A model generated the notes under the pieces. That model was not told the DNA's origin. It searched no databases and was given only the letters and a program-made list of their open reading frames with translations. DNA of 64,000 nucleotides from Pelosinus propionicus DSM 13327 (lineage in GTDB: Bacteria > Bacillota > Negativicutes > DSM-13327). The stretch spans positions 1 to 64,000 of the forward strand of contig NZ_FOTS01000004.1 in the NCBI RefSeq assembly GCF_900114615.1, written 5' to 3'. Shown here in pieces: positions 33,947-35,013 of the stretch (positions are counted from its first letter, which is position 1; every line of letters starts with the position of its first letter). The translations under genes and the position numbers were made by a program.

Positions 33947-34351
33947 TCAAAACTTCTTTTTGGGATGACATTCCCCTTTCAATGACAATGTTAATTTTAC
34001 GTTTACTTCTAGAATATGGCATACTAGATCAGGATCCAATCCATATTGCTCAGCAAGAGTTATTACTTTATTCCACCGTTTATCTGTACTTGCCTGATAA
34101 ATAGGAATGCTTTCACGAATACAGCCCTCCTGATCTGATGAAAGCAAATCTTCCTCATCAAATCCAACTAACCAATCGATACTTACCTTAAAATAGCTGG
34201 CAATACGCCTAAGTGTTGCAATATCCGGTTCGCGGCGGTTAATTTCCCAGGAGGCAAGCGTAGAACGATCAACCTGAAGAATCGTCGCTAATGCTTCTTG
34301 GGTTAACTCACTCCGTAATTGTTTAATCCGATCTCCTAATGTTGTTTCCAT
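33947..34351 (-). CDS. XRE-family transcriptional regulator
   Basis: A 134-aa protein with an N-terminal helix-turn-helix (LTQEALATILQVDRSTLASW) and a C-terminal helical part of unknown function that ends in a basic tail HPKKKF. It is divergent from the DHp-like gene at 34522, and two matching operator copies lie between them. The start at 34351 follows GGGGGTG. Confidence 0.85.
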   Translation of the reverse strand: METTLGDRIKQLRSELTQEALATILQVDRSTLASWEINRREPDIATLRRIASYFKVSIDWLVGFDEEDLLSSDQEGCIRESIPIYQASTDKRWNKVITLAEQYGLDPDLVCHILEVNVKLTLSLKGECHPKKKF

Positions 34352-34407
34352 GAGCACCCCCCCTCTTTATTACGATAGCGTGCTTATCATAGCAGTGCAA
34401 TTTTTTC

Positions 34408-34477
34408 GTCCATAAGACACTTTTTTGGCAGGATTTTACAACATTCTAGAGAATTAGTGTCTTATGGACACTAATTC
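34408..34477. promoter_or_regulatory. paired operators between XRE and DHp-like genes
   Basis: AGTGTCTTATGGAC occurs at 34456-34469 and, inverted and perfect, at 34408-34421. The right copy lies in a perfect 11-bp-arm dyad GAATTAGTGTC/GACACTAATTC (34451-34477). This is the expected binding pattern of the neighbouring XRE regulator. Confidence 0.75.
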
Positions 34478-34521
34478 TTATTCAATAAAAAGCAAGAGGA
34501 TAAAAAAGGAGGGACAGTTTC

Positions 34522-34809
34522 GTGCAGGTAGTAACGTTTTCTAAAGATACGGATGCATTGCAAATGACAGACAATAAACCTAAGAAGCAAGCTACAGTAT
34601 CCAATAATTCTCATGCCGATGTAATTACACTAGTAAATGAAATCAGTGATCCGCTCACGGTTATCAAAGGCTATTTACAAGTTTTTGAAAAGAATCCTGT
34701 GAACAATCAGCAAGAGTGGTTACCTCTCGTATTTCAGGAATTAAATCAAGTGGAGCTATTAATCAACCACTTTATAACACTTTCCCAGAATCAGAAGCCT
34801 AAGTCTTAA
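34522..34809 (+). CDS. stand-alone DHp-like domain without phospho-acceptor His
   Basis: A 95-aa protein. Residues 34-90 resemble the dimerisation/phosphotransfer helices of sporulation-type histidine kinases: VNEISDPLTVIKGYLQVFEK corresponds to the usual HEIRNPLTxIKGFLQL. The phospho-acceptor His is replaced by Asn39. There is no ATPase domain. It could bind kinases or Spo0F-type regulators as a competitor or antikinase (inference). The GTG start is supported by AGGAGGG 8 nt upstream. Confidence 0.8.
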   Translation: MQVVTFSKDTDALQMTDNKPKKQATVSNNSHADVITLVNEISDPLTVIKGYLQVFEKNPVNNQQEWLPLVFQELNQVELLINHFITLSQNQKPKS

Positions 34810-34888: not shown

Positions 34889-34934
34889 AAAGACCAGTAG
34901 AGCTCGCACTATTATACAAGCTCTCCTGGTCTTT
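34889..34934 (+). terminator. terminator after the DHp-like gene
   Basis: AAAGACCAGTAGAGCT pairs with AGCTCTCCTGGTCTTT with one bulge; TTT follows. Confidence 0.75.
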
Positions 34935-35013
34935 AACATTACTATAAACTTTATCCTATAATTTGAGATAACAACAATACATCTGCTAAATCAATTAAGA
35001 ATAATCAGCACAC

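Follow-up and report, generated by a model that had tools for sequence, protein, structure and literature searches.

Gene and domain content of the locus

The window analysed here is a stretch of 64,000 nucleotides from Pelosinus propionicus DSM 13327. It carries a pair of divergent genes, one encoding an XRE/Cro-type repressor of 134 aa (positions 33947–34351, minus strand; HTH_3 match, 3.1e-13) and the other a small protein of 95 aa with a GTG start (34522–34809, plus strand). The latter gene is preceded by the ribosome-binding site AAGGAGGG (34506–34513, plus strand) and followed by a likely terminator, the inverted repeat AAAGACCAGTAGAGCT...AGCTCTCCTGGTCTTT (34889–34935), both read from the sequence.

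A preliminary description of the locus had proposed that the 95-aa protein retains the DHp domain of a sporulation kinase, and our searches bear this out. The Pfam domain HisKA (PF00512) matches residues 40–91 with 27.4 bits, narrowly above the gathering cut-off of 26.9, and the only sequence match in the PDB is sporulation kinase B (3d36, E 4e-4). The predicted structure consists of two helices, as a DHp domain should show, at about residues 30–57 and 63–90; the model is of low confidence (mean pLDDT 66), and Foldseek returned no significant match for it, weak DHp-like ones being found among helical hairpins. Searches of NCBIfam and PHROGs did not assign the protein to a specific family.

Kinases carry the motif H-E-I-R-N-P around the phosphoacceptor, and the 95-aa protein reads N39-E-I-S-D-P at the same place. 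The AAT codon of Asn39 (34636–34638, plus strand) falls in the His column of the family alignment, so that the His is truly absent, and two further positions are changed, Arg(+3) to Ser and Asn(+4) to Asp. The lack of an ATPase domain claimed in the preliminary description was likewise upheld: no HATPase_c was found in the protein by Pfam search, nor any degenerate remnant 3′ of the DHp-only genes by tblastn. Judged from its sequence, the protein is thus unable to be phosphorylated on His or to bind ATP. As the phosphoacceptor is missing, it probably acts by binding partners and not by passing phosphate on. The protein is also unlikely to be a phosphatase, given that the E-x-x-N motif is altered, to E-x-x-D in the window protein and to S-x-x-D in its counterpart from a genome of another family (G026, see below).

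Control region between the two genes

The two perfect inverted operator copies announced in the preliminary description are indeed present between the genes: AGTGTCTTATGGAC (34456–34469) is repeated in inverted orientation as GTCCATAAGACACT (34408–34421). Operator 1, an imperfect GTGTCN5GACAC site (34406–34420), lies just upstream of the -35 element of a sigma-A-like promoter of the XRE gene, TTGCAC-N17-TATCGT (34372–34400, minus strand), whose position is conserved in the alignment of loci. Operator 2 is a 29-bp palindrome (34450–34478) around GTGTCTTATGGACAC (34457–34471) and contains the right-hand copy. Two sites of the GTGTCN5GACAC type, spaced by 49–53 bp, recur in all 19 orthologous loci and consequently cannot be attributed to chance. 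A search of the whole genome (5.4 Mb) detected no other site with fewer than two mismatches to operator 2, which makes the XRE protein look like a local regulator. We infer that it represses through these two putative operators.

The gene for the DHp protein is preceded by a sigma-H-like promoter, GCAGGATTT-N11-AGAGAAT (34428–34454, plus strand), a perfect match to the consensus RNAGGAWWW and RNNGAATWW (PMC8510167). Scored with the pattern RNAGGAWWW-N11/12-RNNGAAT (maximum 13), the other 18 loci reach 11 to 13 at the same place, with shuffle p values from 0 to 0.215, the weakest being those of G313 and G041. A shortened form of the pattern has 206 matches genome-wide versus 111 for a reversed control, so that a lone match means little and the evidence lies in the conserved position: across the loci, the -10 element invariably ends 1–4 bases before operator 2. 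This arrangement suggests that the DHp gene uses sigma-H.

Conservation in the genus Pelosinus

The gene is present in four other Pelosinus genomes, including P. fermentans and Pelosinus sp., with 79–82% identity of the product. The sequence NEISDPLTVIKGYLQ is identical in all five. Asn occupies the phosphoacceptor position in each of them, in line with the conservation that the preliminary description had asked to be checked phylogenetically, and a His in close homologues, which would have spoken against its proposal, does not occur in Pelosinus. In four pairwise comparisons with the window genome (Nei–Gojobori), dN/dS is 0.05–0.12 for the DHp part, close to the 0.11–0.15 of the XRE gene in the same comparisons, and 0.54–1.05 for the relaxed N-terminal 30-odd residues. 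The DHp protein is therefore not decaying; its DHp part is under purifying selection. The variable N-terminal part of helix 1 also contains a 5-aa indel (AIAAN) between species.

Gene order is conserved upstream of the locus and not downstream. Three other Pelosinus genomes gave no close match to either the DHp protein or the XRE protein at the thresholds used, G006 having a weak XRE match only; the DHp protein is thus dispensable.

Orthologous loci and origin of the DHp protein

Among 380 genomes of the class (Negativicutes), 19 XRE orthologues were found, including that of the window; the others are 54–93% identical to it over nearly the full length. No full-length orthologue was found outside the class in about 400 sampled genomes of the phylum, where the best matches cover the HTH part or are 37% identical. 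The divergent gene is the Asn form in the five Pelosinus loci. In G026 it encodes a 102-aa DHp-only protein with Ser at the His position. Eleven of the 19 loci carry instead a kinase of about 235–270 aa (for G314 a separate locus, L038, supplied the kinase sequence), nine with His, one with Tyr (G302) and one with Gln (G046). The two remaining loci have unrelated proteins in this slot, a GGDEF protein in G039 (L070:1939–2718), where both operators are kept, and a 130-aa receiver protein in G020 (L072:2037–2429). The G020 receiver seems to be devoid of the conserved Lys, and operator 2 of this locus is an 18+5+18-base palindrome.

HATPase_c is present in the XRE-linked kinases that were checked, those with Tyr and Gln included. 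These two full-length proteins (L066:1989–2801 and L067:1977–2777), with His replaced and the ATPase domain kept, are candidate pseudokinases. The XRE-linked kinase of G316 (reverse complement of L069, 1991–2737) keeps its His, but its Glu(+1) is replaced by Gly (HGIRNP), a change shared with the Tyr form of G302 (YGIRNP).

The other HisKA proteins encoded in the loci fetched from the class have His in each case where the motif is visible, and a total of 48 distinct His sites was counted, nine of them XRE-linked. By genus, the ratio of His-less to His-bearing forms is 4:3 among XRE-linked lineages, against 0 to roughly 39 in the others (Fisher p about 2e-4, obtained with a count of 38; the test ignores phylogeny, and the loci had been chosen by similarity to the orphan DHp protein).

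A tree of the combined XRE and DHp sequences groups Pelosinus with G026 (97/91), the latter on a long branch, which suggests that truncation probably happened once. The tree of XRE alone is undecided. A single loss of His for all His-less members is not rejected (p-AU 0.34, and 0.30 when tested together with the combined tree), and we consequently leave the number of His losses at one to four. Since orthologous loci hold kinases of about 250 aa, two of them already His-less, we conclude from the comparison of loci that an XRE-linked kinase, stripped of its ATPase domain and of the His, gave rise to the window protein. The restriction of His to these more distant full-length kinases thereby shows where the window protein came from.

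Probable phosphorelay of the host and receiver-facing residues

The genome of P. propionicus encodes Spo0A, a response regulator 49% identical to Spo0F of B. subtilis and a His-bearing Spo0B-like protein of 76 aa, whose gene lies between L27 and obg (L096:1483–1713, contig 84), the neighbourhood used for recognising Spo0B (PMC6136694). Together, these proteins make a Spo0 phosphorelay likely. The Spo0B-like protein is a bare DHp hairpin, so that in Pelosinus the phosphotransferase may be without its customary C-terminal domain. Close to the end of contig 89, the Spo0F-like gene has a transposase-like frame beside it (L115).

Receiver specificity of Spo0 kinases has been assigned to positions +7, +8, +11, +12, +14 and +15, which read TVGFQL in KinB of B. 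subtilis (PMC6136694). The DHp protein reads TVGYQV, with four of six residues identical to KinB and two conservative changes. TVGYQF is the reading in a kinase of 558 aa encoded elsewhere on contig 59 (130.5 kb), the contig of the window. It is the DHp domain of this kinase that is the closest match of the window protein in its own genome, with about 40% identity. The stretch TVIKGYLQ is identical in 17 of 17 XRE-linked DHp proteins, with or without His; ordinary kinases of these genomes often carry it too.

Possible role of the DHp protein

The locus can be pictured as a self-regulated switch, in which XRE would bind the two operators. As operator 2 directly follows the -10 element of the sigma-H-type promoter, XRE bound there is expected to keep the divergent gene from being transcribed. 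Ancestrally, this gene encoded a small soluble histidine kinase of the sporulation type, which in Pelosinus has been reduced to the DHp hairpin, with the phosphoacceptor His and its neighbours altered. At the onset of sporulation, with sigma-H active and XRE released, the DHp protein would be made and would occupy the face of Spo0F or Spo0A that kinases use, so that the flow of phosphate would be lowered or reshaped. The reading that we favour, tentatively and at slightly less than even probability, is that of a non-catalytic docking protein in competition for a Spo0 receiver. It draws on the full kinases at orthologous loci, the low dN/dS of the DHp part, the specificity residues, the invariant TVIKGYLQ, the match to sporulation kinase B, the Spo0 proteins of the genome and the precedent of DivL. 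This Caulobacter protein, in which Tyr stands at the His position, is active neither as a kinase nor as a phosphatase but binds a response regulator, and Thr(+7), Tyr(+12) and Arg(+3) matter for the binding, which was weakened in R553A (PMC4211667). The partner of the DHp protein would accordingly be a phosphorelay receiver, and the sign of its effect probably that of a brake. The preliminary description had suggested that a His-less DHp could titrate kinases or the response regulator and so act on sporulation as a brake. It finds support in the type of the DHp, the conserved loss of His, the pairing with XRE and the Spo0 candidates of the genome, and newly in the sigma-H-like promoter and the specificity residues; titration and a slowing of sporulation are putative. 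The residues at +3 and +4 weigh somewhat against ordinary docking to a response regulator. Asp(+4) is predicted to put an extra negative charge near an acidic pocket, and Ser(+3) counts against docking by analogy with the matching change R553A of DivL. The frequency of TVIKGYLQ in ordinary kinases and the dispensability of the protein speak against the favoured reading as well.

Both helices of the DHp are retained and the nearest relative in the genome is the DHp of the 558-aa kinase, which could also mean that the protein forms heterodimers with sporulation kinases through their DHp domains, poisoning or retuning them in a dominant-negative manner, instead of binding a receiver; with its ATPase domain gone, a mixed dimer would have one catalytic arm fewer. 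The N-terminal part of helix 1, which normally belongs to the dimer stem, is however variable and interrupted by the AIAAN indel, and we consider this alternative unlikely. A further proposal takes the DHp protein for a co-regulator of XRE, its hairpin pairing with the helical C-terminal part of the repressor and relieving or tightening repression in the manner of SinI/SinR. It could appeal to the strict pairing of the two genes, to their common control region and to the confinement, in Pelosinus, of operator matches with fewer than two mismatches to this locus. Nevertheless, the presence of a receiver (G020) or a GGDEF protein (G039) in the slot, with XRE and the operators unchanged, indicates that XRE needs no DHp partner, and such a role seems improbable.

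The series of losses, from full kinase through His-less kinase and DHp only to no kinase, and the absence of the gene from other Pelosinus genomes are what one would expect of a decaying kinase relic devoid of a present role and kept by its neighbourhood alone. We give this explanation equally little credence: selection on the DHp part is purifying, all indels are in-frame, the ribosome-binding site is good, NEISDPLTVIKGYLQ is invariant in five genomes and no ATPase remnant lies downstream, while the grouping of the truncated forms of Pelosinus and G026 argues for persistence across two families.

A broader and rather doubtful scenario can be envisaged, in which an XRE-gated, sigma-H-driven locus of the Negativicutes made a dedicated, non-catalytic docking protein out of a sporulation kinase, a free-standing 'dead DHp' brake of the phosphorelay, with the His lost first, then the ATPase domain, and the receiver-facing surface kept. 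This would represent a new kind of control on the entry into sporulation in Negativicutes, in which, to our knowledge, the Spo0 network has been little studied. A natural DHp of 95 aa deprived of its acceptor, with full-kinase relatives as intermediates, would moreover allow the passage from kinase to pure binding protein to be tested experimentally.

Comparison with known systems

Both DHp-only proteins, exemplified by Spo0B, and kinases without the His, exemplified by DivL, are already known; the histidine-kinase pseudokinases of which we are aware, DivL among them, are large proteins of several domains. No description of a free-standing His-less DHp protein, or of such an XRE-switched locus, was found in the open-licence papers searched. 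With KinA and KinB, whose DHp is of the HisKA type, the window protein shares the DHp sequence, the receiver-specificity residues and a sigma-H-like promoter, kinA of B. subtilis being sigma-H dependent; unlike them, it has no phosphoacceptor His, ATPase domain or sensor part.

As a free-standing DHp hairpin it recalls Spo0B of the phosphorelay, all the more as the Spo0B-like protein of the same genome is also just 76 aa long. Spo0B, however, keeps its His and sits between L27 and obg, whereas the window protein has no His on helix 1 and no obg neighbour, and its domain match is to HisKA instead of SPOB_a; a different gene encodes the obg-linked Spo0B-like protein. Sda, the inhibitor of KinA and KinB, is comparable in the part proposed here, that of a small protein braking the phosphorelay without catalytic activity. 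It is unrelated in sequence, and it binds the DHp, whereas the window protein is itself a DHp. DivL resembles the window protein in the replacement of the phosphoacceptor His and in Thr(+7), Gly(+11) and Tyr(+12), which are common to both. It retains the CA domain, PAS domains and Arg(+3), whereas the window protein consists of the DHp only and has Ser(+3); the Tyr and Gln kinases at the orthologous loci of G302 and G046 are closer to DivL in layout.
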